Below, in pieces: positions 29,444 to 62,050 of a DNA stretch of 64,000 nt. Origin of the DNA: Streptomyces sp. NBC_01283 (lineage in GTDB: Bacteria > Actinomycetota > Actinomycetes > Streptomycetales > Streptomycetaceae); contig NZ_CP108430.1 of NCBI RefSeq assembly GCF_041435335.1, positions 1,922,001-1,986,000 on the forward strand. The letters run 5' to 3'. The notes under the pieces were generated by a model. That model saw only the letters and a program-made list of their open reading frames with translations, had not been told where the DNA came from and made no database searches. The translations under genes and the position numbers were made by a program. Numbering within the stretch: the stretch's first letter is position 1; each line of letters opens with the position of its first letter.

Positions 29444-29471
29444 CATACAGTATTCGTCGACTGTATGCAAT
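29444..29471. promoter_or_regulatory. Putative GntR-type operator between sucC and the oxalate operon
   Basis: CATACAGT (29444-29451) and ACTGTATG (29460-29467) form an 8-bp inverted repeat with an 8-bp spacer. Its right half extends to ACTGTATGCAAT (29460-29471), which recurs with at most a few changes at 61993, 62039 and, reversed, at 59335-59346. It sits midway between two divergent genes, so one site could control both. Confidence 0.7.
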
Positions 29472-29540
29472 CTACCGCGAGAGCACCTACGAGCAGCCTG
29501 TGAGCGCTCCAACTCCCCTACGAAGGGACAGGACTTCGCC

Positions 29541-31235
29541 ATGCCCGACGGCAGCAGCGACACGAACCAAACCCACATCTCCGGTGGGCATCTGGTCGCC
29601 AAGGCACTCAAAGCAGAGGGTGTGGAGGTCATCTACACCCTGTGCGGCGGCCACATCATCGACATCTACGACGGCTGCGTCGACGAGGGGATCGATGTCG
29701 TCGACGTACGCCACGAGCAGGTCGCCGCCCACGCGGCCGACGGCTACGCACGCCTCACCGGAAAGCCGGGATGCGCCGTGGTAACGGCGGGACCGGGAAC
29801 CACGGACGCCGTCACGGGCGTCGCGAACGCCTTCCGCGCGGAGTCCCCCATGCTGCTGATCGGCGGCCAGGGAGCACACACCCAGCACAAGATGGGGTCA
29901 CTCCAGGACCTTCCGCACGTCGACATGATGACGCCGATCACCAAGTTCGCCGCGACCGTGCCGGACACGGCGCGGGCGGCCGACATGGTGTCCATGGCCT
30001 TCCGTGAGTGCTTCCACGGCGCTCCAGGACCGTCCTTCCTGGAGATACCCCGCGATGTGCTCGACGCCAAGGTGCCGGTGGAGAAGGCCCGGGTGCCGCA
30101 GGCCGGGCACTATCGCGCCTCCACCCGCTCGGTGGGCGATCCAGAGGCCATCGAGAAGCTCGCCGACCTGCTCGTGCACGCCGAGAAGCCCGCGATCCTG
30201 CTCGGCAGCCAGGTGTGGACGACACGGGGAACGGCGTCCGCCATCGAGCTCGTGCGGACCCTGAACGTGCCCGCCTACATGAACGGCGCGGGGCGCGGCA
30301 CCCTGCCGCCCGGAGACCCGCACCACTTCCAGCTCTCGCGGCGGTACGCGTTCTCCAACGCCGACCTCATCGTCATCGTGGGGACGCCCTTCGACTTCCG
30401 CATGGGCTACGGGAAGCGGCTCTCCCCTGACGCGACGGTCGTGCAGATCGACCTCGACTACCGCACCGTCGGCAAGAACAGGGACATCGACCTGGGCATC
30501 GTCGGCGACGCCGGCCTCATCCTGAAGTCGGTCACCGAGGCCGCCTCCGGACGTCTCAACGGAGGCGCGTCCAAGCGCAAGGAGTGGCTCGACGAACTGC
30601 GCGCCGCCGAGCAGACGGCCATCGAAAAGCGGCTGCCGAGCCTCAGGTCCGACGCCTCACCGATCCACCCCTACCGCCTCGTCAGCGAAATCAACGACTT
30701 CCTTACCGAAGACTCCATCTACATCGGCGACGGCGGCGACATCGTCACCTTCTCCGGGCAGGTCGTGCAGCCCAAGTCGCCCGGCCACTGGATGGATCCG
30801 GGACCGCTCGGCACGCTCGGCGTCGGCATCCCCTTCGCGCTCGCCGCCAAGCAGGCACGGCCCGACAAGGAGGTGGTGGCCCTCTTCGGAGACGGCGCCT
30901 TCTCGCTGACCGGGTGGGACTTCGAGACGCTCGTCCGCTACCACCTGCCCTTCGTCGGGATCGTCGGCAACAACTCCTCGATGAACCAGATCCGTTACGG
31001 CCAGAAGGCCAAGTACGGCGAGGAGCGCGAACGCATCGGCAACACCCTCGGCGACGTCCACTACGACAAGTTCGCCCAGATGCTCGGCGGCTACGGCGAA
31101 GAGGTCCGCGACCCCGCCGACATCGGCCCGGCGCTGCGGCGGGCGCGCGAGTCCGGCAAGCCCTCGCTGATCAACGTATGGGTCGATCCGGACGCGTACG
31201 CCCCCGGAACCATGAACCAGACCATGTACAAGTGA
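29541..31235 (+). CDS. oxc: Thiamine-pyrophosphate enzyme, probable oxalyl-CoA decarboxylase
   Basis: 564 aa from the ATG with AGGGACAGGA upstream, matching the length of Oxalobacter Oxc (568). TPP-enzyme fold: N-terminal catalytic Glu in VRHEQVAAHAADGYAR, central domain AEKPAILLGSQ, and the C-terminal cofactor motif FGDGAFSLTGWDFETLVRYHLPFVGIVGNN shown as GDGAFSLTGWDFETLV and NNSSMNQ. The sequence by itself also resembles acetolactate synthase/2-hydroxyacyl-CoA lyase relatives. The Oxc call leans on the next gene being a clear Frc and on downstream OxlT-like antiporters. It would convert oxalyl-CoA to formyl-CoA and CO2. Confidence 0.72.
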   Translation: MPDGSSDTNQTHISGGHLVAKALKAEGVEVIYTLCGGHIIDIYDGCVDEGIDVVDVRHEQVAAHAADGYARLTGKPGCAVVTAGPGTTDAVTGVANAFRAESPMLLIGGQGAHTQHKMGSLQDLPHVDMMTPITKFAATVPDTARAADMVSMAFRECFHGAPGPSFLEIPRDVLDAKVPVEKARVPQAGHYRASTRSVGDPEAIEKLADLLVHAEKPAILLGSQVWTTRGTASAIELVRTLNVPAYMNGAGRGTLPPGDPHHFQLSRRYAFSNADLIVIVGTPFDFRMGYGKRLSPDATVVQIDLDYRTVGKNRDIDLGIVGDAGLILKSVTEAASGRLNGGASKRKEWLDELRAAEQTAIEKRLPSLRSDASPIHPYRLVSEINDFLTEDSIYIGDGGDIVTFSGQVVQPKSPGHWMDPGPLGTLGVGIPFALAAKQARPDKEVVALFGDGAFSLTGWDFETLVRYHLPFVGIVGNNSSMNQIRYGQKAKYGEERERIGNTLGDVHYDKFAQMLGGYGEEVRDPADIGPALRRARESGKPSLINVWVDPDAYAPGTMNQTMYK

Positions 31236-31247
31236 GGAGCCCGCGCG

Positions 31248-32480
31248 ATGACGACCAAGGCTCTTGAGGGCGTACGCGTCCTCGACATGACACACGTCCA
31301 GTCCGGGCCCTCCGCCACGCAGCTCCTCGCGTGGCTGGGCGCGGACGTGGTGAAGCTGGAGGCGCCCTCCGGGGACATCACGCGCAAGCAGCTGCGTGAT
31401 CTCCCGGACGTCGACTCGCTCTACTTCACGATGCTCAACTGCAACAAGCGGAGCATCACCCTCAACACCAAGACCGAGCGCGGCAAGGAGCTCCTCACGG
31501 AGCTGATCCGGCGCTCTGACGTGATGGTCGAGAACTTCGGCCCGGGCGCCGTGGACCGGATGGGCTTCACCTGGGAGCGCATCCAGGAGATCAACCCACG
31601 CATCGTCTACGCCTCGATCAAGGGCTTCGGAGAGGGCCCCTACACGAACTTCAAGGCCTACGAAGTGGTGGCACAGGCCATGGGCGGCTCCATGTCGACC
31701 ACCGGCTTCGAGGACGGGCCGCCGCTCGCCACGGGTGCCCAGATCGGTGACTCCGGGACCGGCATCCACGCCGTAGCCGGCATTCTGGCCGCCCTCTTCC
31801 AGAGGGAGAACACCGGCCGCGGACAGCGCGTGAACGTGGCCATGCAGCACGCGGTGCTCAACCTGTGCCGGGTCAAGCTGCGCGACCAGCAGCGCCTGGC
31901 GCACGGGCCGCTCGCCGAGTACCCGAACGAGGACTTCGGTGACGAGGTGCCGCGCTCGGGCAACGCGAGCGGCGGCGGACAGCCCGGCTGGGCCGTCAAG
32001 TGCGCGCCGGGCGGACCGAACGACTACGTGTACGTCATCGTGCAGCCCGTCGGCTGGCAGCCCCTCACCGAGCTCATCGGGCGTCCCGAGCTCGCCGAGG
32101 ACCCCGAGTGGGCCACTCCGGAGTCGCGGCTCCCCAAGCTCGGCAAGATGTTCCCGCTGATCGAGGAATGGTCCTCCACGCTCCCCAAGTGGGAGGTCCT
32201 GGAGCGGCTCAACGCCCACAACATCCCCTGCGGCCCGATCCTCTCCACCAAGGAGATCATCGAGGACGCCTCGCTGGCCGCGAACGAGATGGTCGTGGAG
32301 GTCGCGCATCCGCAGCGCGGCTCCTTCACCACGGTCGGCTCCCCGCTGAAGCTGTCGGACTCCCCTGTGAACGTGGTCAGTTCGCCGCTCCTGGGCGAGC
32401 ACAACGCGGAGGTCTTCGTCGGTGAGCTCGGCCTAGGTGACGAGGAACTGCGTCTGCTCAAGTCGAACGGAGTGATCTGA
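31248..32480 (+). CDS. frc: Formyl-CoA:oxalate CoA-transferase
   Basis: 410 aa, class III CoA-transferase. Extended identity to Oxalobacter Frc as I remember it: [72 protein letters not shown] and [12 protein letters not shown]. The catalytic Asp is at 168 (GAQIGDSG), equivalent to Asp169. The glycine loop is SGGGQPGW, with Ser where Oxalobacter has the first Gly. It moves CoA from formyl-CoA to oxalate, feeding the upstream decarboxylase. GAGGAG precedes the ATG, 12 bp after the oxc stop. Confidence 0.92.
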
Positions 32481-32483
32481 TTG

Positions 32484-34628
32484 ATGGCCGAAGACCGCGC
32501 ACTGACGGTGCGGGCGCTCCTCGACTCGGTACGCGCGGAGGGGCGGACGTCCCTGACGGCGCCGGAGGGAAAGATCCTCGCGGACGCGTACGGGATCGCC
32601 GTGCCCGGCGAGGAGCTGGCGACGGACGTGGACGAGGCGGTCGCGCACGCGGCCCGCTTCGACGGCCCCGTCGTCATGAAGATCGTCTCCCCCGACATCC
32701 TGCACAAGACCGATGCCGGCGGTGTCATCGTCGGGGTGCAGGGCGCCACCGACGTGCGGGCCGCCTTCTGCGAGATCGTCAAGAACGCGCGTGCGTACGC
32801 TCCGGAGGCACGTATCGAGGGCGTGCAGGTGCAGGAGCTGCTGCCCTCCGGCCAGGAAGTGATCGTCGGGGCGGTGACCGACCCGACGTTCGGGAAGGTC
32901 GTCGCCTTCGGGCTTGGCGGCGTACTCGTCGAGGTCCTCAAGGACGTCACGTTCCGCCTCGCGCCGGTAGACGCTGACGAGGCCGCATCGATGCTCGACT
33001 CGATCCGTGCCGCCGAGGTGCTGCGCGGCGTACGGGGCGCGCCCGCGGTGGACCGGTGGGCGGTGGCCGAGCAGATACGCCGGGTGTCCCGACTGGTCAC
33101 CGACTTCCCGGAGATCGCCGAGGTGGACCTCAACCCGGTGATCGCCACTCCGGAGGGCGCGATCGCCGCGGACATCCGCGTCATCCTCGCCGAAGGGGCT
33201 CCGAAGAAGCGCCGTACCTACACGCGCGAGGAGATGCTCACGTCGATGCGGCGGCTGATGGAGCCCCGCTCGGTCGCCGTGGTCGGCGCCTCCAACGAGC
33301 AGGGCAAGATCGGCAACTCCGTGATGCGCAACCTCATCGACGGCGGCTTCTCCGGAGAGATCCATCCGGTGAACCCCAAGGCCGATGACATCTTGGGCCG
33401 CAAGGCGTACAAGAGTGTCACGGACGTTCCCGGTGAGGTGGATGTGGCGGTCTTCGCGATCCCCGCCAAGTTCGTGGCGTCGGCCTTGGAGGAGGTGGGC
33501 CGCAAGGGCATCCCCAACGCGGTCCTCATCCCTTCCGGGTTCGCCGAGACCGGTGAACAGGCGCTCCAGGACGAGATCGTGGAGATCGGCGAGCGGCACG
33601 GGGTGCGCCTTCTCGGGCCGAACATCTACGGCTACTACTCGACGTGGCAGAACCTGTGCGCCACGTTCTGCACGCCGTACGACGTCAAGGGCGGGGTCGC
33701 CCTGACGAGCCAGTCCGGTGGCATCGGGATGGCCATCCTGGGTTTCGCGCGCACTACGAAGACGGGCGTTTCGGCGATCGTCGGGCTCGGCAACAAGTCC
33801 GACCTGGACGAGGACGACCTCCTCACGTGGTTCGGCGAGGACCCCAACACCAAGTGCATCGCCATGCACCTGGAGGACCTCAAGGACGGCCGCGCCTTCG
33901 TGGAGGCCGCGAAGGCGACCGTCCCGAAGAAGCCGGTCGTGGTCCTGAAGGCCGGACGTACGGCCGCCGGGGCGAAGGCCGCCGGATCGCATACGGGCGC
34001 CCTGGCGGGCGACGACGCCGTGTACGACGACATCCTCAGGCAGGCGGGCGTCATCAGGGCCCCCGGACTCAACGAGATGCTGGAGTACGCGCGCGCGTTG
34101 CCGGTGCTTCCCACCCCGCAGGGCGACAACATCGTGATCATCACGGGTGCGGGCGGCTCCGGTGTGCTGCTCTCCGACGCGGTGACCGACAACGGGCTGC
34201 GGCTCATGGAGATCCCCGACGACCTGGACGCGTCCTTCCGGGCATTCATCCCGCCCTTCGGGGCGGCGGGCAACCCCGTCGACATCACCGGAGGCGAGCC
34301 CCCGTCGACGTACGAGGCGACCATCAGGCTCGGCCTGGAGGATCCGCGCATCCACGCGCTCGTCCTGGGCTACTGGCACACCATCGTCACCCCGCCCATG
34401 GTCTTCGCCGAACTGACGGCCCGCGTGATCGCGGAGTTCCGTGAGCGCGGCATCGAGAAGCCCGTCGTCGCCTCCCTTGCGGGCGACGTCGAGGTCGAGG
34501 AGGCCTGCCAGTACCTCTTCGAGCGGGGCGTCGTGGCGTACCCGTACACGACGGAGAAGCCGGTGGCAGCCCTCGGTGCGAAGTACCGGTGGGCCCGGGC
34601 TGCCGGCCTGTTGGGGGGCGGTCCATGA
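32484..34628 (+). CDS. ADP-forming acyl-CoA synthetase (acetate--CoA ligase family)
   Basis: 714 aa from the ATG 3 bp after frc; an adjacent TTG would add one residue. Domain order is ATP-grasp first (VVMKIVSPDILHKTDAGGV, QELLPSGQEVIVGAV, GLGGVLVEVLKDV), then CoA-binding (EPRSVAVVGASN) and the ligase domains with the phosphohistidine in GSHTGALAG (His503). Such enzymes reversibly couple an acyl-CoA to ATP formation from ADP. In this operon it could prime the cycle by making oxalyl- or formyl-CoA, or harvest ATP from formyl-CoA. The substrate is inferred only from context. Confidence 0.85.
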   Translation: MAEDRALTVRALLDSVRAEGRTSLTAPEGKILADAYGIAVPGEELATDVDEAVAHAARFDGPVVMKIVSPDILHKTDAGGVIVGVQGATDVRAAFCEIVKNARAYAPEARIEGVQVQELLPSGQEVIVGAVTDPTFGKVVAFGLGGVLVEVLKDVTFRLAPVDADEAASMLDSIRAAEVLRGVRGAPAVDRWAVAEQIRRVSRLVTDFPEIAEVDLNPVIATPEGAIAADIRVILAEGAPKKRRTYTREEMLTSMRRLMEPRSVAVVGASNEQGKIGNSVMRNLIDGGFSGEIHPVNPKADDILGRKAYKSVTDVPGEVDVAVFAIPAKFVASALEEVGRKGIPNAVLIPSGFAETGEQALQDEIVEIGERHGVRLLGPNIYGYYSTWQNLCATFCTPYDVKGGVALTSQSGGIGMAILGFARTTKTGVSAIVGLGNKSDLDEDDLLTWFGEDPNTKCIAMHLEDLKDGRAFVEAAKATVPKKPVVVLKAGRTAAGAKAAGSHTGALAGDDAVYDDILRQAGVIRAPGLNEMLEYARALPVLPTPQGDNIVIITGAGGSGVLLSDAVTDNGLRLMEIPDDLDASFRAFIPPFGAAGNPVDITGGEPPSTYEATIRLGLEDPRIHALVLGYWHTIVTPPMVFAELTARVIAEFRERGIEKPVVASLAGDVEVEEACQYLFERGVVAYPYTTEKPVAALGAKYRWARAAGLLGGGP

Positions 34629-34641
34629 GGTGACCGGTGTG

Positions 34642-34674
34642 GGGGCCGGCCGGCGGTGCGCGTCGGCCGGCCCC
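34642..34674. terminator. Hairpin between the CoA-ligase gene and the antiporter genes
   Basis: GGGGCCGGCCG (34642-34652) pairs perfectly with CGGCCGGCCCC (34664-34674) around an 11-nt loop, 14 bp after the ligase stop. No T-run follows. It may attenuate read-through into the two transporter genes or act as an mRNA stability element. Confidence 0.55.
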
Positions 34675-34753
34675 GGGACCCGTGCGCACACGAAAGGAAT
34701 TGGACAGGGGGCGCTGGCCAGGATCTTTTCGACGCAAGGGGTGCTAGAGCGAC

Positions 34754-36142
34754 ATGACGACAACAGACATACCCACAGCCGTCCCCTACAGGGAGGTGAA
34801 GGACTCCAACGGCCGGATGTTCCGGGTCGGCGAGACCGACGTCGACATCATGGGCCGCAAGCGCAAGTGGATGGTCATCCTGCCGTGGGTCGGCATGATG
34901 GGAATCAGTTCGGCGGAGTACGCGTTCGCGTCGGCCGAGGACACCCTGCGCGAGGCGCACGCCTGGGGCGACACCGCCATTTTCTGGATGCTGGGGGTCT
35001 GGGTCTTCTTCCAGGCCGCCGTGGCCTTCCCGGCGGGCAAACTCCGTGAGAGCGGGAAACTTCCGGCACGCTGGGCGATGATGTGCGGCGCTGTCGGCAC
35101 GCTGCTGGGATATCTGTCACTGGCGTTCGCGCCCCATGTCGTCGTCGCCTTCATCGGCTTCGGCATGTTCAGCGGTATGGGCGCCGGAATGGTGTATGCG
35201 ACCTGCGTGAACATGGTCGGCAAGTGGTATCCCGAACGGAAGGGCGGAAAGACCGGATTCGTCAACGGCGGATTCGCCTACGGTTCGGTGCCGTTCGTGT
35301 TCATCTTCACCGGCTTCATGGATCTGACGAACTTCCGCTGGGTGCTCGTGAGCGTCGGCCTCCTCCTGGCGGCGATGGTCGCCGTGGCCGGTTACTTCTT
35401 CCGGGACCCGCCGAAGAACTGGTGGCCGGCCGACGTGGACCCGCTGCGGCCGCCGAGCGACCCACGGGCCAGGCGCGCGCTGGCGATGAACCCGCCGGCC
35501 GTGCACCAGTACACGCCGAAGGAGGCGTGGCAGACCGGGCGGGTCGCGCTGATGTGGTTCTGCCTGCTGTGCACATCGGGCGTGAACATCTTCGGCATCG
35601 CCTTCCAGGTGGACATCGGGAAGGAAGCCGGATTCGCCGGTGGAATCGTCGCCACCGCGATGTCCTTGAAGGCCATCGTCAACGGCACGGGCCGAGGTGT
35701 CATCGGCTGGCTCTCGGACCTCTACGGACGCAAACGCTGCCTGATCTTCGTCTGTATCGTCCTCGGCCTTTCCCAGTACGGAATCCTGTGGGCCGCGGAC
35801 ATCAAGAACCTCCCGCTGTTCCTGATCTTCTCCAGCATCTCCGGATTCGGAGGAGGCGCCATCTTCCCGATGTTCGCGGCGATGACGGCGGACTACTTCG
35901 GCGAGAACAACAACGCGTCCAATTACGGCCTGGTCTACAGCTCCAAGCTGGTCTCCGGGCTTCTCGGCTCCGGTATGGGCGCCATCGTGGTGCACAACTG
36001 GGGACACACCGGCGCCTTCACGCTGGCCGGCTCGATTTCCCTGTTCGCGGGATTCATCGCGCTCTTCCTTTCCCAACCGGGAAGGCCCAAGGACAAAGGC
36101 ATCAAACCCAATCCGCAACCCCTCGGTGAGGAGATGGCCTGA
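34754..36142 (+). CDS. OFA-family MFS transporter, OxlT-like oxalate:formate antiporter (copy 1)
   Basis: 462 aa, twelve predicted membrane spans. A 40-residue cytoplasmic N-terminus (VPYREVKDSNGRMFRVGETD) is shared with the next gene. The NGTGRGVIGWLSDLYGRK segment places Arg314 in the helix-8 position, and YGLVYSSKLVSG places Lys398 in helix 11. In Oxalobacter OxlT one Arg (272) and one Lys (355) at such positions bind oxalate. It likely imports oxalate in exchange for formate. The start is fixed by an in-frame TAG at 34745. The upstream region has a weak ribosome site. Confidence 0.85.
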   Translation: MTTTDIPTAVPYREVKDSNGRMFRVGETDVDIMGRKRKWMVILPWVGMMGISSAEYAFASAEDTLREAHAWGDTAIFWMLGVWVFFQAAVAFPAGKLRESGKLPARWAMMCGAVGTLLGYLSLAFAPHVVVAFIGFGMFSGMGAGMVYATCVNMVGKWYPERKGGKTGFVNGGFAYGSVPFVFIFTGFMDLTNFRWVLVSVGLLLAAMVAVAGYFFRDPPKNWWPADVDPLRPPSDPRARRALAMNPPAVHQYTPKEAWQTGRVALMWFCLLCTSGVNIFGIAFQVDIGKEAGFAGGIVATAMSLKAIVNGTGRGVIGWLSDLYGRKRCLIFVCIVLGLSQYGILWAADIKNLPLFLIFSSISGFGGGAIFPMFAAMTADYFGENNNASNYGLVYSSKLVSGLLGSGMGAIVVHNWGHTGAFTLAGSISLFAGFIALFLSQPGRPKDKGIKPNPQPLGEEMA

Positions 36143-37515
36143 TGACGGCGGAGCCCATCGCCGCAAGCAACAAGGTGCCGGCCGGCACCCCGTATCGCGA
36201 GATCACCGACGAGCACGGCCGCGTCTATCGCGTGGGCGAGACGGACCGGGACATCCTCGGCCACTCCCGCAAGATCATGGTGTACCTGCCGTGGATCGCG
36301 ATGATGGCCATCAGCGTCTTCGAGTACGCGTTCGGCTCGGCGGAGGACACCCTGTCCCACGCCCACGGCTGGACGCAGTCCAACACCTTCTGGATTCTGA
36401 GTGTCTGGGTCTTCTTCCAGGCGGGCATAGCGTTCCCGGCCGGATGGATGCGCGAACGAGGCATCCTCACGGCGCGCAACGCCATGTTCATCGGGTCGTT
36501 CATGTGCCTGATCGGATTCCTCGCCCTCTCGCACCTGAACAACGTATGGCTCGCGATCATCGGGTTCGGCGTCATCGGCGGCGTGGGCTCCGGCTTCGTC
36601 TACGCGACCTGCATCAATATGGTCGCCAAGTGGTTCCCGGAACGCCGCGGCGCCAAGACGGGATTCGTCAACGGCGGATTCGCCTACGGCTCACTGCCGT
36701 TCATCTTCATCTTCAACTACGCCTTCGACACGGGTAATTACCATCGCGTCCTCGACCTGATCGGCGCGTACATCCTGGTCGTCGTGCTGGCCTGCGCCTT
36801 CTTCTTCAAGGACCCGCCGAAGAACTGGTGGCCCTCCGAAGTCGACCCGTTGGAGAAGTCGGGCGCTTCCAAGGACGCGGCGAGCCTCGCCAAGAACCCG
36901 CCCGCGGTACGTCAGTACACGCCGAAGGAGGCCATCAGGACGGGCATGCTGCCCCTGATGTGGTTCACCCTCGTCATGACCGCGGGTGTGTCCATCTTCG
37001 GGATCTCCTTCCAGGTGGACTTCGCCAAGGAGGTGGGCTTCGGGCCGCTGGTCGCCGCGACGTCGATGGGGCTCATGGCCGTCATCAACGGCATCGGACG
37101 CGGGGTGGTCGGCTGGCTCTCCGACATCTGGGGCCGCAAGGCGACCCTGATATTCGTGATCCTGGTCCTCGGGCTCTCCCAGTTCGGAGTGATCTGGGCG
37201 GGCGACATCCACAGCGAATGGCTGTTCCTGGTCTTCGCGTTCCTCTCCGGATTCGGCGGCGGTGCGTTCTATCCGATGTTCGCGGCACTGACCCCGGACT
37301 ACTTCGGCGAGAACTACAACGCCACCAACTACGGGCTCGTCTACAGCGGCAAGCTGATCAGCGGCCTGTTCGGCGGCGGCCTCGGCTCGATGGTGGTGGC
37401 CGCGTGGGGCTACAACGGCGCGTACGCGCTCGCGGGCGGCATCTCGATGCTGGCGGCGGCCGTCGCACTGCTGCTCCGCCAGCCGGGGCGTGAGCGGGCG
37501 CCTGCGCCCGCTTGA
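36142..37515 (+). CDS. OFA-family MFS transporter, OxlT-like (copy 2)
   Basis: 457 aa, ATG overlapping the stop of copy 1 (TGATG). It keeps the same N-terminal tail (TPYREITDEHGRVYRVGETD) and the DPPKNWWP motif in the central loop, so the pair is an old tandem duplication. Arg320 (NGIGRGVVGWLSD) and Lys404 (YGLVYSGKLISG) are conserved. It ends the oxalate operon just before a very strong terminator. The two copies may differ in affinity or form a heteromeric unit; the sequence cannot tell. Confidence 0.85.
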   Translation: MTAEPIAASNKVPAGTPYREITDEHGRVYRVGETDRDILGHSRKIMVYLPWIAMMAISVFEYAFGSAEDTLSHAHGWTQSNTFWILSVWVFFQAGIAFPAGWMRERGILTARNAMFIGSFMCLIGFLALSHLNNVWLAIIGFGVIGGVGSGFVYATCINMVAKWFPERRGAKTGFVNGGFAYGSLPFIFIFNYAFDTGNYHRVLDLIGAYILVVVLACAFFFKDPPKNWWPSEVDPLEKSGASKDAASLAKNPPAVRQYTPKEAIRTGMLPLMWFTLVMTAGVSIFGISFQVDFAKEVGFGPLVAATSMGLMAVINGIGRGVVGWLSDIWGRKATLIFVILVLGLSQFGVIWAGDIHSEWLFLVFAFLSGFGGGAFYPMFAALTPDYFGENYNATNYGLVYSGKLISGLFGGGLGSMVVAAWGYNGAYALAGGISMLAAAVALLLRQPGRERAPAPA

Positions 37516-37524
37516 CCCCCGTGA

Positions 37525-37577
37525 CGCACACACAGCTCTCGCCGCGCGGCTTGCGCGCGGCGAGAGCTGTGTGTGCG
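37525..37577. terminator. 24-bp perfect-stem terminator ending the oxalate operon
   Basis: The left arm at 37525-37548 begins CGCACACACAGCTCTC and pairs base for base with the right arm at 37554-37577, leaving a 5-nt GCTTG loop. It lies between convergent units (antiporter copy 2 on the plus strand, isomerase gene on the minus strand) and would stop transcription from both sides. Confidence 0.9.
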
Positions 37578-52141: not shown

Positions 52142-52153
52142 GAACAGGCCTCC

Positions 52154-54460: not shown

Positions 54461-54478
54461 GGCGGTGAACCCTTCGGG

Positions 54479-55498
54479 TCAGGGAGTTGAGGCCGTACGT
54501 CGCTGGACCAGCACCGCGGCGACGATGATCGCCCCCTTGGCAATCTGCTGGACGTCGCTCTGGAGGTTGTTCAGGGCGAAGATGTTCTGGATCGTCATGA
54601 AGATCAGTACGCCGAGCACGGAGCCGGTGATGGTGCCCCGGCCGCCGCTGAGCAGGGTGCCGCCGATGATCGCGGCGGCGATGGCGTCGAGCTCGTAGAG
54701 GTTGCCGTTCGTGTTCTGGCCCGACCCGGAGAGAATGATCAGCAGGAAGGCCGCGATGCCGCAGCAGAGCCCGGAGAGCAGGTAGAGATAGAGGCGCTGC
54801 CTGCGTACGTCGATGCCGGCGAGGCGCGCCGCTTCCGCGTTGCCGCCGACGGCGACCGAGCGGCGCCCGAAGGTGGTGCGGTTCAAAAGCAGCCAGCCGA
54901 TGACGGTGACGGCCGCGAAGACCAGCACGAGCGGCGGTATGCCGAGGACGTAGGAGTCGCGCTCGCCGAGCTTCAGCACGCTGTCGACGGTGACCATCTG
55001 GGTTTTGCCGTCGGTGATCTGCAGGGCTAGGCCGCGGCCCGACGCCAGCATCGCGAGCGTCGCGATGAACGGCACCATCCTGCCGTAGGCGATGAGCACT
55101 CCGTTGACGAGGCCGCAGGCCATGCCGACGATCACCGCGGTGAAGAGGATGCCCGCGAAGCCGTACTCCTGGGTGGCGACGGTCGTGGCCCAGACGGAGG
55201 CGAGGGCGACGATCGCGCCGACCGACAGGTCGATGCCGCCGGAGATGATCACGAACGTCATGCCGACCGTGACGACACCGATGACGGACGCCTGGGTGAG
55301 GATCAGCTGGACGTTGTCGGTGTCGAGGAACGAGTCGGGCTGGGTGATGCCGCCGATCAGGACCAGGACGGCGAGCACGCCGAGCAGGGACAGCGTCCGC
55401 ACGTCGGCATGCGCGGTGAGCGTCCGCAACGGGCTTGAGCCGTCCGCCGGTTCACTCTTCGATGCGGCGGGCCGTGGCGGCGATGCGGGCTGCGTCAT
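54479..55498 (-). CDS. Sugar ABC transporter permease (RbsC type)
   Basis: 339 aa, ATG overlapping the ATPase stop (ATGA). About nine hydrophobic segments. RbsC-family landmarks are GGIDLSVGAIVALASV, NGVLIAYGRMVPFIATLAML, GRRSVAVGGNAEAARLAGI and GGTLLSGGRGTITGSVLG. It forms the homodimeric channel for the sugar captured by the downstream lipoprotein. The first 30 residues are Pro/Ser/Ala-rich. Confidence 0.93.
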   Translation of the reverse strand: MTQPASPPRPAASKSEPADGSSPLRTLTAHADVRTLSLLGVLAVLVLIGGITQPDSFLDTDNVQLILTQASVIGVVTVGMTFVIISGGIDLSVGAIVALASVWATTVATQEYGFAGILFTAVIVGMACGLVNGVLIAYGRMVPFIATLAMLASGRGLALQITDGKTQMVTVDSVLKLGERDSYVLGIPPLVLVFAAVTVIGWLLLNRTTFGRRSVAVGGNAEAARLAGIDVRRQRLYLYLLSGLCCGIAAFLLIILSGSGQNTNGNLYELDAIAAAIIGGTLLSGGRGTITGSVLGVLIFMTIQNIFALNNLQSDVQQIAKGAIIVAAVLVQRRTASTP

Positions 55499-57012
55499 GA
55501 CGCCGGGCTCCCTTCGAGTACGAGGTCGAGTACGCGGTGTTCGTCGAGGTCACGGGCGGGCGCCGTATGGACGACGCGGCCCTCGCGGAGGACCAGGACA
55601 CGGTCGGCGAGGCCGAGGACTTCGGGCACTTCGCTGGAGACGAGCAGGACGGCGAGGCCGTCGTCGGCGAGCCTGCGGATCACCGCGTACAGCTCGGCGC
55701 GGGCGCCGATGTCCACGCCGCGGGTGGGCTCGTCGAGCAGCAGGACGCGGCAGCCGCGGAGCAGCCAGCGGGCCAGGACGGCTTTTTGCTGGTTGCCGCC
55801 GGAGAGCGTGCGCACGGGTGCGGTGGGGTTGTCGGGCCGCAGGGACAGCTCGCGGGTGGCGGTCTGCGCGGCCTTCCGCTCGGCGCCCCGGTCGAGCCAA
55901 CCGCCGCGTGAGAAGCGGGACATGGAGGAGACCGACACGTTGTTGGTGACGGACTCCAGCATCAGCAGGGCCTGTGCCTTGCGCTCCTCGGGGGCGAGCC
56001 CGAGCCCCGCGCGGACGGCGGCACGCACGCTTCCGGGCTTCAACACCCGCCCGGAGACGGAGACTTGACCGGCCGTCGGCTTGCGGGCGCCGTAGATCGT
56101 CTCCAGGATCTCGGAGCGCCCGGAGCCGACGAGCCCGGCAAGGCCGACGATCTCACCGGGGCGCAGCTCCAGGTCGACGGGTTCGAACTCGCCCGCGCGG
56201 GCGAGGCCTCGTACCGTCAACACCGCGTCGGTGGCGGGCGGTTCGGTCGGCCGGTCGGGGAAGACGTATTCGACGTTGCGGCCCGTCATCATGGCGACGA
56301 CCTCGCGGGTCGGCGTCTCCTTCGCGGGGAGCCCGCCCGCCACGGCGCGGCCGTCCTTGAGGACGGTGACCCGGTCGCCGATGCGGCGGATCTCCTCCAG
56401 GCGGTGGGAGATGTAGACGACGGCGACGCCGTCCGCCGTGAGGTCGCCGACGATGCGGAAGAGGTTGTCGACCTCGTCCGGGTCGAGCGCGGCAGAGGGC
56501 TCGTCCATGACGATGAGGCGCACTTCGTGGGAGAGCGCGCGGGCCATGGACACGATCTGCTGCTGGGCGGCGGAGAGATCACCGACGAGCGCCCCGGGCT
56601 CGATCTCACCGTGCCCAAGTCGCTTGAGAAGGGCGGCAGTTGAGGCCTTGGCTTCGCGCCCCTTGACCACGAACCCGGCTGCGGTCGGCTCGTGCCCGAG
56701 GTGGACGTTCTCGGCGACGGACAGGCCCTCCACCAGGTCGAGCTCCTGGTAGATGGTGGCGATGCCGAGGCGCATCGCGGCGATGGGCGACTTGAGTGTG
56801 GTGCGCTCGCCGCGCCAGGTGATCTCGCCGTCGTCGGGCTGGTGTGCCCCGGCGAGGACCTTGATGAGGGTGGACTTCCCGGCGCCGTTCTGGCCGAGGA
56901 GGCAGTGCACTTCGCCGGCCTGGACCTGGAGGTCGACGCCGTCGAGGGCGCGGACGCCGGGGAACGACTTGGTGATGCCGGACATGGTGAGCAGCGGTGG
57001 TTCTGGTGCCAT
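55495..57012 (-). CDS. Sugar ABC transporter ATP-binding protein (RbsA type, double cassette)
   Basis: 505 aa with two nucleotide-binding domains. The first has GQNGAGKSTLIKVLAG, LSAAQQQIVSMARAL and LIVMDEPSAALD. The second has GLVGSGRSEILETIYGA, LSGGNQQKAVLARWL and VLLLDEPTRGVD; its Walker A is degenerate as usual for RbsA. In the first cassette the signature reads LSAAQQQ where LSVAQQQ is usual. It powers import together with the RbsC-type permease. First transporter gene, 177 bp after the ROK gene. Confidence 0.93.
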   Translation of the reverse strand: MAPEPPLLTMSGITKSFPGVRALDGVDLQVQAGEVHCLLGQNGAGKSTLIKVLAGAHQPDDGEITWRGERTTLKSPIAAMRLGIATIYQELDLVEGLSVAENVHLGHEPTAAGFVVKGREAKASTAALLKRLGHGEIEPGALVGDLSAAQQQIVSMARALSHEVRLIVMDEPSAALDPDEVDNLFRIVGDLTADGVAVVYISHRLEEIRRIGDRVTVLKDGRAVAGGLPAKETPTREVVAMMTGRNVEYVFPDRPTEPPATDAVLTVRGLARAGEFEPVDLELRPGEIVGLAGLVGSGRSEILETIYGARKPTAGQVSVSGRVLKPGSVRAAVRAGLGLAPEERKAQALLMLESVTNNVSVSSMSRFSRGGWLDRGAERKAAQTATRELSLRPDNPTAPVRTLSGGNQQKAVLARWLLRGCRVLLLDEPTRGVDIGARAELYAVIRRLADDGLAVLLVSSEVPEVLGLADRVLVLREGRVVHTAPARDLDEHRVLDLVLEGSPAS

Positions 57013-57189
57013 GACGGTTCCCTTGGGCGGGTCGGCGGGTGCGGCCGGTTGCAGGGCAGGGCGGGGTAGGGAGGTGGCCCCCTCGGGCGGGGGCGGAGCC
57101 TGTTTCGGAGCAGGGCGAGGCAGCGCGCTGTACTGGGTGAGGTGTGGTGCGGTTCGTTGCGTACGGGTCGGACAGGTCGTACGTGCCGG

Positions 57190-58380
57190 TCAGGCCGGCG
57201 AGAACAGGTGGTCGCTGATGAGCCGGGCGCCGCCGATGACTCCGGCGGTCGGCCCCAGTTCGCCGAGGACGATGGGGAGGTTGCCGGTCGCCAGGGGCAG
57301 CGACTGGCGGTAGACCTGGGTGCGGATGGCGGCGAGCAGCGTGTGGCCGAGGCCGGTGACCCCGCCGCCGATCACCACGAGGCCGGGGTTGAAGAAGCTG
57401 ACGAGGCCCGCGATGACCTGGCCGGTGCGGTTGCCGCCCGCGCGGATGAGGTCGAGTGCGGTGGCGTCACCGGCGGCAGCCGCCGCGGAGACGTCGACCG
57501 CGCTGAGCTTCCCGGCGGCTTCCAGGCGGGTCGCGAGCTCCTGGGAGAGCCCTTGGCCGACGGCGTCCTCCGCGTCGCGGGCGAGCGCCGCGCCGCTGAA
57601 GTACGCCTCCAGGCAGCCCTTGTTGCCGCAGGCGCAGGGCCGCCCGTCCGGTTCGACCTGGATATGGCCGATGTCGCCCGCGCTGCCGGTCACCCCTCGG
57701 TAGACCTCACCGCCGACGACGATGCCGCAGCCGATGCCCGTGCCGATCTTGACGCAGAGGAAGTCGCCCACGGAGCGTGCGACGCCCGCGTGCTGCTCCC
57801 CCATCGCCATCAGGTTCACGTCGTTGTCGACCATGACGGGGCAGCCCAGATCCTGGCTGATGGCCTCCCGTACGGGAAAGCCGTCCCACCCCGGCATGAT
57901 CGGCGGGGCGACCGGGACACCTTCGGGGAAGCGGACGGGGCCCGGGACGCCGATCCCGGCGCCGTCGAACCCTTCCGCGAGCCCGGAGGCCTTCAACTTG
58001 GCTGCCATGGCGAGGACTTGCTCGAAGACCGCGACGGGCCCTTCGCGCACGTCCATGGGCTGGTTGATGTGGCCGAGGACCTCCAGCTCGGCGTTGGTCA
58101 CCGCTACGTCGACCGAGGTCGCGCCGATGTCCACGCCGAGGAAGCGGAGGGCGGGGGCCAGGCGGATGTTGTGGGAGCGGCGGCCGCCGCGCGAGGCGGC
58201 GAGTCCGTCGGCGACCACGAGTCCGGTCTCCAGGAGCCGGTCCACCTCGACGGCCAGCTTCGACCGGGAGAGGTCGACCTGATCGCCCAGCTGGGCACGG
58301 GAGTTGGGCCCTCCGTCACGCAGCAGTCGCAGCAGTCGCGCCTGGTGCGCATTGGCGGGTCGAGCCGTCATACGTCTCAC
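57190..58380 (-). CDS. ROK family transcriptional regulator
   Basis: 396 aa from the GTG at 58378-58380, which has GGGGAGGGG upstream; an ATG three codons in is too far from it. Winged HTH at 10-70 (QARLLRLLRDGGPNSRAQLG, DLSRSKLAVEVDRLLETGLV), then the ROK sugar-kinase-like domain with FLGVDIGATSVDVAV, the GHIQVEPDGRPCACGNKGCLE zinc motif (in parts: GHIQVEP and CACGNKGCLE) and GTGIGCGIVVGG. The zinc Cys/His residues are intact. It likely represses the downstream ABC/dehydrogenase genes until their sugar is present, and may act at the shared palindrome at 58511 and 51087. Confidence 0.92.
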   Translation of the reverse strand: MRRMTARPANAHQARLLRLLRDGGPNSRAQLGDQVDLSRSKLAVEVDRLLETGLVVADGLAASRGGRRSHNIRLAPALRFLGVDIGATSVDVAVTNAELEVLGHINQPMDVREGPVAVFEQVLAMAAKLKASGLAEGFDGAGIGVPGPVRFPEGVPVAPPIMPGWDGFPVREAISQDLGCPVMVDNDVNLMAMGEQHAGVARSVGDFLCVKIGTGIGCGIVVGGEVYRGVTGSAGDIGHIQVEPDGRPCACGNKGCLEAYFSGAALARDAEDAVGQGLSQELATRLEAAGKLSAVDVSAAAAAGDATALDLIRAGGNRTGQVIAGLVSFFNPGLVVIGGGVTGLGHTLLAAIRTQVYRQSLPLATGNLPIVLGELGPTAGVIGGARLISDHLFSPA

Positions 58381-58510
58381 GCGCCCCTCCCCGCCTCATC
58401 GGGCAACTCATGTCGTCACGCCCGGCTTTCGTTCTTCTCGTCGGGCTTTCGAGGGGAACGTAGCAGCGCCTGCCGGGAGTGGGAAGAAGTTGCGCACGAA
58501 TTACCCACGA

Positions 58511-58533
58511 CTTTCTCCAGTCACAGGACAAAG
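58511..58533. promoter_or_regulatory. Putative ROK operator (copy 2) upstream of the ROK gene
   Basis: CTTTCTCC-AGTCACA-GGACAAAG, 23 bp, with the same half-sites and 7-bp spacer as 51087-51109. It lies 131 bp upstream of the ROK start codon, in the region expected to hold its promoter, and would allow autoregulation and control of the ABC operon by read-through. Confidence 0.65.
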
Positions 58534-58561
58534 AGGGGTGCGGGCGCCCCGGACGCAGAAA

Positions 58562-58607
58562 GGCCCACGCGGACCGGCGCCGAAACGCCGGCCGGTCCGC
58601 GTGGGCC
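58562..58607. terminator. Hairpin terminator after the GntR gene
   Basis: GGCCCACGCGGACCGGC (58562-58578) pairs perfectly with GCCGGTCCGCGTGGGCC (58591-58607), giving a 17-bp stem. It is 24 bp beyond the GntR stop codon and separates that gene from the ROK promoter region. Confidence 0.85.
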
Positions 58608-58630
58608 CGCCCGGTGGGTCCGCTCGCCCC

Positions 58631-59308
58631 TCAGTCGCGCTCGCGCCGGTGGTACGTCTCGCGCGTGTGCTCCGTGTGTGCGCGCATGATCTCCGTGGCC
58701 CGGCTCTCGTCGCGCTCGGCGATCGCCGCGATCAGCGCGCGGTGCTCGATCCAGGACTGCTTGCCGCGCCGGCGGGCCACCGGCGTGTAGTACCAGCGCA
58801 CCCGGCGGTCCACCTGCCCGGCGAGTTCGGCGAGGACGACATTGCCGGCGAGCTCCATGACCTTGGCGTGGAAGGCCGCGTTCGTGGTCACCACCAGGTC
58901 CACCTCGCCGTCCGCGACGGCCTGTTCACCCTTGGCGCACAGCTCCTCCAGGGCTGTGATCCCGGCGGTGCCCGTGTTGGCCGCGGCGAGCCTGGCGGCC
59001 TCCGCCTCCAGGAGCGTGCGGACAGTGAGCAGCTGGTCCGCCTCCTCCTCGGTGGGCTCGTGCACGAACGCGCCCTGCGCGGGCCGCAGATCGACCCAGC
59101 CCTCGGTGTTGAGGCGTTGCAGCGCCTCGCGCACGGGCTGCCGCGACACCCCCAGGTGCCCGGCGAGTTCGCTCTCCACGAGGTGCTGGCCCGGCTGGAG
59201 CGCACGGGTCGTGATGAGTTCGAGCAGCGCTTCGTAGACCCGCTCACGGAGCGGACCTGGGCGTTCCAGCTTGGGCACCGCCCCCTGCGGCAGTCCTGTG
59301 GACAACAT
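58631..59308 (-). CDS. GntR family transcriptional regulator, FCD subfamily
   Basis: 225 aa from the ATG at 59306-59308 with GAGGGGA upstream; the open frame to 59359 runs into the operator. HTH: LRERVYEALLELITTRALQPGQ then HLGVSRQPVREALQRLNTEGWV in parts. FCD ligand domain with metal-site residues in NAAFHAKVMELAG, IEHRALIAAIAERD and MRAHTEHTRE. FCD regulators answer to carboxylic acids, which suits oxalate, formate or glyoxylate. A TTGTCTACAGT element is 27 bp upstream and recurs near the OFA transporter and the oxc operon. Confidence 0.92.
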   Translation of the reverse strand: MLSTGLPQGAVPKLERPGPLRERVYEALLELITTRALQPGQHLVESELAGHLGVSRQPVREALQRLNTEGWVDLRPAQGAFVHEPTEEEADQLLTVRTLLEAEAARLAAANTGTAGITALEELCAKGEQAVADGEVDLVVTTNAAFHAKVMELAGNVVLAELAGQVDRRVRWYYTPVARRRGKQSWIEHRALIAAIAERDESRATEIMRAHTEHTRETYHRRERD

Positions 59309-59334
59309 CGCGGTCCCCTCGTCGACGATTGCCT

Positions 59335-59346
59335 TTTGTCTACAGT
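59335..59346. promoter_or_regulatory. Putative GntR operator at its own promoter
   Basis: TTTGTCTACAGT on the plus strand, i.e. ACTGTAGACAAA read towards the gene. It matches ACTGTAGACAAT at 62039-62050 in 11 of 12 positions. It lies 27-38 bp upstream of the GntR start codon, an expected place for autorepression. Confidence 0.65.
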
Positions 59347-59416
59347 CTACCGAGCACAATGGCCAGCACCAGGGGGAGTTGAGCCGGTCACACGGCCCGC
59401 AGGCGCCACCCCGCGG

Positions 59417-60364
59417 TTACGGGCAGCGGATGACCTGGCCGGCGTACGAGAGGTTCCCGCCGAAGCCGAAGAGCAGCACCGGGTCCCCGTGGACGATCTC
59501 GCCGCGCTCCACCAGCTTGGACAGGGCGAGCGGGATGCTGCCCGCCGAGGTGTTGCCGGAGTGCACGACATCGCGCGCGACGACCGCGTTGACCGCGCCG
59601 ATCCGCCCGGCGAGCGGCTCGATGATGCGCAGGTTGGCCTGGTGCAGGACGACCGCGGCCAGGTCCTCCGGGGTGAGCCCGGCCCGCTCACAGGCCTTGC
59701 GGGCGAGCGGCGGCAGCTGCGTCGTCGCCCAGCGGTAGACGCTCTGGCCCTCCTGCGCGAACCGCGGGGGCGTGCCCTCGATCCGGACGGCGTTGCCCAT
59801 CTCGGGCACCGAGCCCCAGAGCACGGGACCGATGCCGGGCGCCTCCCCGGGACCGCACGCCTCGACGACCGCGGCGCCCGCGCCGTCCCCGACCAGGACG
59901 CAGGTGGTGCGGTCCGTCCAGTCGGCCACCTCGGACATCTTGTCCGCGCCGATCACCAGGGCCCGGGTGGCGCCCCCGGCCCGTACGGCGTGGTCGGCGG
60001 TGGCGAGCGCGTGCGTGAAGCCCGCGCACACCACGTTGATGTCCATGGCGGCCGGCGAGGGAATGCCGAGGCGGGCCGCCACCCGGGCCGCCATGTTCGG
60101 CGAGCGGTCGATCGCGGTGGAGGTGGCGACCAGCACGAGGTCGATGGCGTCGGGTGACAGGCCCGCCGCCGCGATGGCCTTGGCCCCCGCGTGCGCGGCG
60201 AGCTCGTCGACCGGCTCGTCGGGTCCGGCGATGTGGCGGGTGCGGATGCCCACGCGGGAGCGGATCCACTCGTCGCTGGTGTCGACCATGCCCGCCAGGT
60301 CCTCGTTCGTGAGGATCCTGGCGGGCTGGTAGTGGCCGACGGCGGCGATGCGTGAGCCGTGCAT
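59417..60364 (-). CDS. 3-oxoacyl-ACP synthase III family protein (FabH-like)
   Basis: 315 aa. Thiolase-fold KAS III with the catalytic Cys in INVVCAGFTHAL, His in VVLHQANLRIIE and Asn in VHSGNTSAGSIP, so all three active-site residues are intact. N-terminal TSDEWIRSRVGIRTRHIA is the FabH hallmark. It condenses an acyl-CoA with malonyl-ACP in canonical FabH. Isolated from other fatty-acid genes and placed between an OFA transporter and a carboxylate-type regulator, its acyl-CoA substrate here is unclear. Confidence 0.9.
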   Translation of the reverse strand: MHGSRIAAVGHYQPARILTNEDLAGMVDTSDEWIRSRVGIRTRHIAGPDEPVDELAAHAGAKAIAAAGLSPDAIDLVLVATSTAIDRSPNMAARVAARLGIPSPAAMDINVVCAGFTHALATADHAVRAGGATRALVIGADKMSEVADWTDRTTCVLVGDGAGAAVVEACGPGEAPGIGPVLWGSVPEMGNAVRIEGTPPRFAQEGQSVYRWATTQLPPLARKACERAGLTPEDLAAVVLHQANLRIIEPLAGRIGAVNAVVARDVVHSGNTSAGSIPLALSKLVERGEIVHGDPVLLFGFGGNLSYAGQVIRCP

Positions 60365-60486
60365 GAACGGGTCCCCCTTGTTGCCGGAGATGCGGGACCG
60401 TCCAGTCTGCTCAGCGACTCACCGGTAACAGGACGCGTAAAGCAACAGGAATCGGGCGTCGGGTTTGGTCACTTCTCATCATCGTG

Positions 60487-60630
60487 TCACCCGGTGAAGA
60501 GCTGGGTGGCCTTGTGTACGAGTTCATACAGCCCATATGTGAGCGGAACCCCCACCCAGAGCCAGGAGCCGACGATCAGCGCCCTGCGGCGGGGCGGACT
60601 ACTTGGCGGCGTGCTGGTCGGTGCCGTCAT
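60487..60630 (-). CDS. Small membrane protein, probable MFS transporter small subunit
   Basis: 47 aa, ATG at 60628-60630 preceded by GAGGGAGG; the start lies 32 bp inside the 3' end of the OFA transporter gene. It has a Pro/Ser/Thr-rich N-terminus, RRR, then one membrane helix (ALIVGSWLWVGVPLTYGLYEL) and a short tail VHKATQLFTG. Tiny single-span proteins following OFA transporters are known in actinobacteria as presumed accessory subunits. Translational coupling to the transporter supports this. A longer in-frame start at 60711 lies wholly inside the transporter gene. Confidence 0.78.
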   Translation of the reverse strand: MTAPTSTPPSSPPRRRALIVGSWLWVGVPLTYGLYELVHKATQLFTG

Positions 60631-61933
60631 GGGCGGCCTCCCTCGGGGCGGGGATGTGGTGGCGGGCGTGGACGGGCCGGACGAACTCGTTCGCCACGAA
60701 GCCGACGACAAGGAGGCCGATCATGATCGTGAGGGAGAGGCCGTAGAGCCCCGCCCCGCTCTTGCCCGCCTCTTCCTGGCGGTCGGCGACCCAGTTGACG
60801 ATCAGCGGGCCGAGCACGCCCGCCGTGGACCAGGCGGTGAGGAGCCGGCCGTGGATCGCGCCGACCTGGTAGGTCCCGAAGAGGTCCTTCAGGTACGCGG
60901 GGATCGTGGCGAAGCCGCCTCCGTAGAAGGAGAGGATCACCAGCGCGCAGACGACGAAGAGCGGCTTCGAGGCGTCCCCGAACTGGGCGATCAGCAGATA
61001 CATCAGGGCGCCGACGCCCAGGTAGACGCGGTAGACGTTCTTGCGGCCGATCAGGTCGGACGCCGAAGACCAGCCGATGCGTCCGGCCATGTTCGCGGCG
61101 GAGAGCAGGGCGACGAAGCCCGCCGCGGCTGCGACCGAGACCGGTGTCGAGGTGTCGGAGAAGAAGTCGGTGATCATCGGCGCCGCCTTCTCCAGGATGC
61201 CGATGCCCGCGGTCACGTTCATGCAGAGCACGATCCACAGGCACCAGAACTGGGGCGTCCGCACGGCGGCCCGCGCGGAAACCTGCGGCCCGTCGAGCGT
61301 CCCGGGGGCGCCGGGCGTGCGCGCCCCTTCCGTGCGCGGCACCCGCACCAGGAACACGCCGAGCGACATGAAGGCGGCGTACGTCAGGCCGTGCACGAGG
61401 AAGGCGAGGGCGATGCCGTCGGAGTCCGAGCCGAAGGACTCCAGCATCTGCGCGGACCACGGTGACGCGATGAGGGCGCCGCCGCCGAAGCCCATGATCG
61501 CGATGCCGGTCGCCATGCCCGGACGGTCCGGGAACCACTTGATCAGCGTCGACACGGGTGAGATGTAGCCGATGCCGAGACCGATGCCGCCGACGAAGCC
61601 GTACCCGAAGACGATCAGCCAGTACTGGCTGATCGCCGCGCCGAGGGCCGCGATCAGGAAGCCGGACGAGAAGCAGACGAGGGCGACCGTCATGGCCCAG
61701 CGCGGGCCGTTGCGCTCCACGAGCGTGCCGCCGAAGGCGGCCGACAGGCCCAGCATCACGATGCCGAGCTGGAAGGGGAGCGCGCTCTGCGTGCCGCTGA
61801 GGTGGAGCGCTGATTCCAGCGGGGGCTTGAAGACGCTCCAGGCATAGGCCTGGCCGATGGAGAGATGGACGGACAGCGCGGCGGGCGGTACCAGCCAGCG
61901 GCTCCATCCCGGGGGTGCTACGGGGGGCCTCAT
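60599..61933 (-). CDS. OFA-family MFS transporter (monocarboxylate/oxalate-formate type)
   Basis: 444 aa from the ATG at 61931-61933; the frame open to 62038 includes an operator-like region. Twelve spans: WLVPPAALSVHLSIGQAYAWSVF opens helix 1 in the manner of OFA transporters, YISPVSTLIKWFPDRPGMATG follows helix 4. Helix 8 has AGRIGWSSASDLIGRK with the Arg, but helix 11 reads LTAWSTAGVLGPLI, lacking the Lys of OxlT and of the tandem copies at 34754/36142. It is probably not a strict oxalate:formate exchanger; formate or another small acid is possible. Confidence 0.87.
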   Translation of the reverse strand: MRPPVAPPGWSRWLVPPAALSVHLSIGQAYAWSVFKPPLESALHLSGTQSALPFQLGIVMLGLSAAFGGTLVERNGPRWAMTVALVCFSSGFLIAALGAAISQYWLIVFGYGFVGGIGLGIGYISPVSTLIKWFPDRPGMATGIAIMGFGGGALIASPWSAQMLESFGSDSDGIALAFLVHGLTYAAFMSLGVFLVRVPRTEGARTPGAPGTLDGPQVSARAAVRTPQFWCLWIVLCMNVTAGIGILEKAAPMITDFFSDTSTPVSVAAAAGFVALLSAANMAGRIGWSSASDLIGRKNVYRVYLGVGALMYLLIAQFGDASKPLFVVCALVILSFYGGGFATIPAYLKDLFGTYQVGAIHGRLLTAWSTAGVLGPLIVNWVADRQEEAGKSGAGLYGLSLTIMIGLLVVGFVANEFVRPVHARHHIPAPREAAHDGTDQHAAK

Positions 61934-61992
61934 GATCCCGAACAGTAGGAAGCCGGGAGGGGAGTTGGGAAGAGGCGGAACCGATTCCGTCG

Positions 61993-62050
61993 ACGGTATG
62001 CAATGTGGCGCGCGACCCCTTGCTGGGCCAACTTCCATACTGTAGACAAT
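61993..62050. promoter_or_regulatory. Two putative GntR operators between the OFA transporter and the reductase gene
   Basis: ACGGTATGCAAT (61993-62004) and ACTGTAGACAAT (62039-62050), 46 bp apart start to start. The first sits in the context GTCGAC-GGTATGCAAT, almost identical to GTCGAC-TGTATGCAAT at 29456-29471. Both lie in the 194-bp gap between divergent genes, so they may regulate the transporter operon and the reductase/formate dehydrogenase operon together. Confidence 0.7.

Follow-up and report, generated by a model that had tools for sequence, protein, structure and literature searches.

Soils are rich in oxalate, the breakdown of which drives the oxalate-carbonate pathway. PanE2 of Methylobacterium extorquens has been characterised as an oxalyl-CoA reductase (PMC8411744), and deletion of apbA2 slows growth of Cupriavidus necator on oxalate (PMC7486775). 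In the FadR subfamily of GntR regulators, operators of several groups have a 2-nt GT-AC spacing, with weaker boxes lying 7–12 nt from the site centre (PMC4494728). We analysed a 64,000-nt stretch (the window) of the 9.59-Mb genome of Streptomyces sp. NBC_01283 (NZ_CP108430.1, positions 1922001–1986000; coordinates below are those of the window), in which an initial annotation had linked oxalate/formate genes by a shared 12-bp motif and assigned them to the GntR-family gene at 58631. We conclude that the motif copies are, in all likelihood, operators of this FCD-type GntR regulator (58631–59308), which would control one oxalate regulon through repression relieved by oxalate or a product of it. 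A single oxalate regulon under this regulator is still the best reading of the locus, given gene co-occurrence, gene proximity in relatives and conservation of the sites.

Reading the letters directly, we found all four 12-mers of the initial annotation in place. They and the larger blocks around them are:

29460–29471: 12-mer ACTGTATGCAAT, in the intergenic region between sucC and the thiamine diphosphate (ThDP) enzyme gene
61993–62004, plus strand: 12-mer ACGGTATGCAAT, a second operator copy on the transporter side of the panE/transporter region
62039–62050: 12-mer ACTGTAGACAAT, in the transporter/panE intergenic region
59346–59335, minus strand: 12-mer ACTGTAGACAAA, upstream of the GntR-FCD regulator gene
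29444–29471: operator block CATACAGTATTCGTCGACTGTATGCAAT, between sucC and the ThDP enzyme gene, a TGTNNRCA site with an inverted half-site
62036–62053: 18-bp operator CATACTGTAGACAATATT, with three mismatches to the palindrome CATACTGTATACAGTATG

The core TGTNNRCA sits within a palindrome whose full form is near CATACTGTATACAGTATG, and every 12-mer is therefore a complete dimer site. The GT/AC pairs of the FadR subfamily are present, as GT-N2-AC in ACTGTAGACAAT-type sites and off by one base in TATGC-type sites. Additional elements accompany the core: an inverted half-site at the ThDP/sucC promoter and direct half-boxes at the regulator promoter. The inverted repeat CATACAGT-N8-ACTGTATG at 29444–29467, previously taken for the dimer site, does exist, but we dropped that interpretation of it; the 12-mer alone is the palindromic dimer site and the 24-bp repeat represents an added half-site. 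A GTCGAC flank is indeed common to the copies at 29456 and 61989. In alignments of relatives the blocks were near-invariant, while the downstream flanks dropped to background. Immediately upstream of the operator block at the ThDP gene, a second conserved stretch, TGCGGGATAACAAG, was noted at about 29427–29443; it is possibly part of the sucC promoter.

Motif density was measured across the source genome, with the reversed motif as control throughout. The loose motif ACTGTATGCAAT with up to two mismatches matched 33 times, against 72 for the control, so that this form showed no genome-wide enrichment. The tight pattern ACTGTAKRCRAW behaved differently: it had only five exact matches in 9.59 Mb (control, 2), three of them at the annotated sites; the remaining two were at 1854317, within a long reading frame, and at 8332516, between long frames. 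At one mismatch ACTGTAKRCRAW matched 59 times, again fewer than its control (75). The lack of genome-wide enrichment of the loose 12-mer and the one-mismatch pattern indicates a small regulon. Within the window, five matches to ACTGTAKRCRAW occurred at up to one mismatch, the four annotated sites plus 35273–35284, inside the first MFS coding region. From the density outside the window, 0.013 exact matches would be expected in 64 kb, a post hoc figure, as ACTGTAKRCRAW was built from these sites and their relatives; conservation in relatives is therefore the real test. The palindrome CATACTGTATACAGTATG, allowing three mismatches, was found at one place in the genome, 62036–62053, and since its reversed control also had one match, only the location is informative.

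Conservation was surveyed in 150 Streptomyces genomes, whose relatedness to one another makes the counts non-independent. The regulator was found in 97, the ThDP enzyme in 67 and the panE gene in 63. A regulator match was present in every one of the 67 ThDP-positive and 63 panE-positive genomes, although it was partial in two (G027 and G090). Exact ACTGTAKRCRAW matches averaged 3.62 per genome with the regulator (n = 97; reversed control 1.25) and 0.51 per genome without it (n = 53; reversed control 0.96); none of the 97 regulator-positive genomes, compared with 32 of the 53 regulator-negative ones, lacked an exact match altogether. A chance motif was accordingly rejected, ACTGTAKRCRAW being rare, conserved and tied to regulator presence.

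The sites stand at the same three promoters in the relatives. The 12-mer of the ThDP promoter was kept at up to one mismatch in 67/67 genomes (64 exact and three with one mismatch; sets of 43 and 24). Of 43 distinct sequences upstream of panE (350 bp, either strand), 37 carried the 12-mer exactly and all 43 carried it at up to one mismatch; ACGGTATGCAAT itself recurred identically in three of these, and the form AC[CGT]GTATGC[AG][AG]T in 22. Using the same search space, the regulator promoter had an exact site in 53, and a site within one mismatch in 57, of 63 distinct orthologous sequences, which derive from 67 hits of at least 70% identity and are a subset of all orthologues. Of the best 80 named loci, which may overlap this set of 63, 70 had an exact site in the regulator promoter and 72 had one at up to one mismatch; for panE promoters the figures were 44 and 46 of 47. 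Named relatives were Streptomyces, and the nearest regulator among these best 80 loci was that of Streptomyces sp. MZ04 (97%). The operator block can outlast the ThDP gene: in L156, L200, L201 and L203 it is kept at the sucC/frc promoter although that gene is absent, with one base changed in L156. The conservation that the initial annotation had suggested looking for is thus found at all three promoters (oxc/sucC, regulator, panE), and sites of a related form occur outside Streptomyces (see below).

The regulator has the two domains of the FadR/FCD subfamily, GntR at 68.6 bits (cut-off 27) and FCD at 89.7 bits (cut-off 24.3). Its start is placed at ATG 59308 because orthologues align from that methionine, and the operator consequently lies upstream of the coding region. 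A TTG at 59359, the start of the mechanically called reading frame, would place the operator within the coding region; the orthologue alignment favours the ATG. Residues N143, H147, E188, H189 and H211 of the FCD pocket were invariant in 13 sequences, with a putative role in metal binding. The recognition-helix region, where S55–P58 and R60–L66 were invariant in the same number of sequences, is kept in paralogues of 55–60% identity. Exact sites were found in the 350 bp upstream of three of eight such paralogue genes; four others had two mismatches (three of these as TCTGTATACAGA) and one had none. Some genomes (L134, L136, L156 and L200) have a regulator copy immediately beside panE together with 55–60% paralogues and canonical oxalyl-CoA decarboxylase (OXC).

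When 296 genomes of the class were searched, regulator orthologues of 58–66% identity turned up in 14 genomes of family f17. A match to ACTGTNNACAGT at up to two mismatches lay within 120 bp of the regulator start in 15 of 15 cases, these being the best loci of the 14 f17 genomes and Nonomuraea gerenzanensis; 4.1% of shuffled sequences did as well (0 to 7 of 100 per locus). The Nonomuraea locus has a compact gene set with panE divergent from oxc-frc. It gave four palindrome matches at up to four mismatches and none in 20 shuffles, in a test that was not blind, the 18-bp palindrome having been composed after viewing promoters of the f17 and Nonomuraea type. By position in that locus these matches are:

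891: before sucC
958: before or just inside the next transporter frame
11654: before oxc
11899: before panE

The genes of the set in the window, with neighbours that accompany them, are:

25628–27313, minus strand: aldehyde dehydrogenase family gene, collinear with sucD-sucC (Pfam Aldedh, 291 bits); adjoins sucCD in several relatives
27310–28203, minus strand: sucD-like CoA ligase alpha subunit (NCBIfam, 440 bits, above cut-off)
28200–29339, minus strand: sucC-like CoA ligase beta subunit, divergent from the ThDP gene (NCBIfam, 495 bits, above cut-off)
29541–31235, plus strand: ThDP enzyme of the OXC/2-hydroxyacyl-CoA lyase superfamily (TIGR03254, 249 bits, cut-off 739)
31248–32480, plus strand: frc, formyl-CoA:oxalate CoA-transferase (FRC; TIGR03253, 688 bits, cut-off 504; 500 bits to YfdW, 1pt5)
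32481–34628, plus strand: NDP-forming acyl-CoA ligase (Ligase_CoA_2, ATP-grasp_5, Succ_CoA_lig)
34754–36142, plus strand: MFS transporter of the oxalate/formate-antiporter family (TIGR00890, 177 bits, below cut-off 375)
36142–37515, plus strand: second MFS transporter of the same antiporter family (NF049980, 198 bits, and TIGR00890, 172 bits, both below cut-off)
58631–59308, minus strand: GntR-family FCD regulator, start ATG 59308 (FCD and GntR Pfam domains above cut-off)
59417–60364, minus strand: fabH-like KAS III gene next to the regulator (NCBIfam, 368 bits)
60599–61936, minus strand: MFS transporter of oxalate/formate or lactate type (NF049980, 307 bits, cut-off 320; TIGR00890, 178 bits, cut-off 375)
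62128–63105, plus strand: PanE/ApbA-like reductase (NF005089, 460 bits; ApbA domains)

About 21 kb (37515–58631) separates the two gene groups; a sugar ABC transporter and a ROK-family gene lie at the regulator end of this stretch. Among 52 genomes with the regulator and the ThDP gene on the same contig, their distance was at most 13 kb in 14 and more than 23 kb in 38. In L119, L120, L122, L124 and L125 the whole set forms a single gene run in which no gap exceeds 350 bp; L123 has the same run without the transporter next to panE, and L126–L128 are shorter versions. The second carboxylate locus that had been placed 30 kb away is at that distance here, but the compact arrangement in 14 of 52 genomes marks it as one part of a split cluster instead of a separate locus. 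The 21-kb gap looks like a later insertion. The fabH-like gene adjoins the regulator in many relatives and was not found in L126–L131.

The panE-like gene probably encodes an oxalyl-CoA reductase, judging from its ApbA/PanE domains and its frc/oxc neighbourhood, the features used here to recognise a PanE2/ApbA2-type protein. Of six panE regions in the plasmid collection, three (Nonomuraea, Cupriavidus and Phyllobacterium) have frc and oxc-type genes nearby and one, in Azospirillum, has oxlT and gcl; in the other two, from Skermanella and a Rhodobacteraceae, neither frc/oxc-type genes nor oxlT/gcl were found within 7 kb. The panE homologues of Skermanella and Azospirillum (L294 and L297) lie near NAD(P) transhydrogenase genes.

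The oxc/frc operon of the initial annotation stands as regards frc, which passes its family model, but the gene called oxc falls far below the canonical OXC model. Its product may nonetheless do the same work. FRC was found in 76 of the 150 Streptomyces genomes, 67 with the ThDP enzyme and nine without. Canonical OXC was present in all nine of the latter, compared with two of the 67 (Fisher 4e-10), although these nine genomes may be interrelated, so that independent replacements are probably fewer. One further genome (G122) has canonical OXC with no FRC match at threshold. Each enzyme thus seems to take the other's place, a pattern that favours oxalate as the substrate; from this distribution the ThDP enzyme is a probable functional oxalyl-CoA decarboxylase, and the gene set very probably breaks down oxalate. 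A Phyllobacterium plasmid has a 65% homologue of the ThDP enzyme (L296:13448–14896) next to frc and sucCD, panE being about 5 kb off.

Several observations weigh against a single oxalate regulon under this regulator, besides the relatedness within the survey. At up to one mismatch no site was found in six of the 63 regulator promoters, in eight of the 80 named loci, or in L310, a same-genus orthologue of 71% identity whose best match had four mismatches; only three of the eight paralogue genes had one. No site was found in the three loci fetched for f19 homologues (about 45% identity; nine genomes matching), and no motif showed upstream of the canonical OXC gene of L136. At least two exact ACTGTAKRCRAW matches occurred in five of the 53 regulator-negative genomes. 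The ThDP enzyme, besides missing TIGR03254, has Leu-Gln in place of the Tyr-Glu of the canonical L136 OXC, a pair that we take to be Y134-E135 of the Methylobacterium enzyme (PMC8411744), an assumed equivalence in which the L136 protein was the sequence aligned. The transporters of the window score under the oxalate/formate antiporter cut-offs; by the OxlT model TIGR04259 the three reach 130, 143 and 139 bits (cut-off 335). Finally, oxalate metabolism offers no established role for sucCD, the aldehyde dehydrogenase or fabH.

Some of these points would be accommodated if the same regulator and regulon served a 2-hydroxy acid (lactate or glycolate, for example), the ThDP enzyme acting as a lyase that yields an aldehyde and formyl-CoA, FRC passing on the CoA, and the aldehyde dehydrogenase and CoA ligases finishing the pathway. 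This scheme finds a use for those last genes, and it fits the Leu-Gln replacement and the one transporter that approaches the lactate model (307 of 320 bits). The best solved relative of the ThDP enzyme, 7pt3, is also named a 2-hydroxyacyl-CoA lyase (280 bits), yet 8vzk, named an OXC, follows at 272 bits; and although the NCBIfam lyase model NF058623 scores above the OXC model (372 and 249 bits), both are under cut-off, which for NF058623 is 600 bits. Because FRC passes the formyl-CoA transferase model, all nine FRC genomes without the ThDP enzyme carry canonical OXC, and panE homologues have frc and oxc close by in Cupriavidus and oxlT in Azospirillum, we consider a 2-hydroxy acid unlikely as the substrate. 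Tentatively, we raise a combined possibility: that oxalate genes have carried the CATACTGTA-type operator as a mark since ancient times, and that the ThDP enzyme represents a second, non-canonical OXC clade without Tyr-Glu, swapped with canonical OXC where the operator-controlled FRC set was kept. The suggestion of antiquity comes from the frc promoter of Cupriavidus campinensis (L295:10711), which has CATACTGTATGTAAA, a one-mismatch match to the 12-mer only, at a locus where two regulator homologues (32% and 25%) lie near panE, frc and oxc. With up to four mismatches allowed, the full palindrome had no match in the five proteobacterial loci L294–L297 and L299.

In the oxalate regulon that we favour, a regulator dimer would bind each TGTNNRCA palindrome in three intergenic regions: the divergence between sucCD-aldehyde dehydrogenase and ThDP-frc-ligase-transporter, the regulator's own promoter, and the transporter/panE divergence. 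It would most likely repress all targets until oxalate, or else oxalyl-CoA, glyoxylate or formate, enters the FCD pocket. The derepressed genes would then import oxalate and activate it with CoA, part being decarboxylated for energy and part reduced to glyoxylate. Activation in place of repression seems improbable: some FadR-subfamily proteins, such as GlcC, do activate (PMC11323563), but the site in the regulator's own promoter, and the FCD/FadR-type repressors HypR (PMC6608401) and GlcR (PMC11323563) as precedents, argue for repression. It is highly unlikely that the sites belong to some other transcription factor. One candidate is the ROK-family gene adjoining the regulator, and ROK/ABC homologues occur in the flank of 71 of the 80 named loci; in the runs of L119, L120, L122, L124 and L125, however, the FCD gene is the sole regulator among the named genes, no search for regulators elsewhere in these genomes having been made. 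The site moreover has the FadR-subfamily form, and Streptomyces carries it in the promoter of the FCD gene itself, with a related form in f17. We give as little credence to the blocks being core promoter elements of a shared sigma factor. They do lie close upstream of genes, and by eye their TAGAC/TATG strings resemble -10 elements, but a scan of 29340–29560, covering the sigma-70 type only, found no such site, and the blocks are palindromic, rare in the genome and linked to regulator presence. A terminator scan of the same interval found none.

The regulon lends itself to a ready test, with three small promoter regions, one protein and a few candidate inducers. It also suggests that an unassigned clade of ThDP enzymes may substitute for oxalyl-CoA decarboxylase, and a role for PanE-like genes now annotated as pantothenate enzymes. 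We found no paper that names a regulator for Streptomyces oxalate genes among the open-licence papers searched, a search that covered result listings and the openings of abstracts and mostly left out subscription journals.

Compared with described systems, the operators have the TGT-N2-ACA centre and the nearby extra half-boxes of the FadR subfamily (PMC4494728, whose main text does not contain the word oxalate). A close parallel is HypR of Streptomyces coelicolor, an FCD GntR protein of the same type with an own-promoter site and scattered catabolic targets (PMC6608401). Its His142, 186 and 208 form a three-His site spaced much like H147, H189 and H211 here. A difference is Asn143 of our regulator, at the presumed place of Asp130 of TM0439. 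HypR also differs in controlling hydroxyproline genes through the motif CTNTGC(A/C)ATGTCAC (PMC6608401). GlcR of Paracoccus denitrificans, likened to our regulator by description only, exerts the kind of control proposed here, over a C2-acid pathway, as a repressor freed by a small acid, but its targets are glycolate oxidase genes and its inducer is glycolate (PMC11323563). On the enzyme side, again by description, frc-oxc-apbA2 of Cupriavidus necator and PanE2 of Methylobacterium extorquens show the same grouping of CoA transferase, decarboxylase and PanE-type reductase in oxalate use (PMC7486775, PMC8411744), although the Methylobacterium OXC is canonical, unlike the ThDP enzyme of the window (PMC8411744). 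Set beside these systems, the oxalate regulon described here is a new but ordinary type of bacterial regulon.

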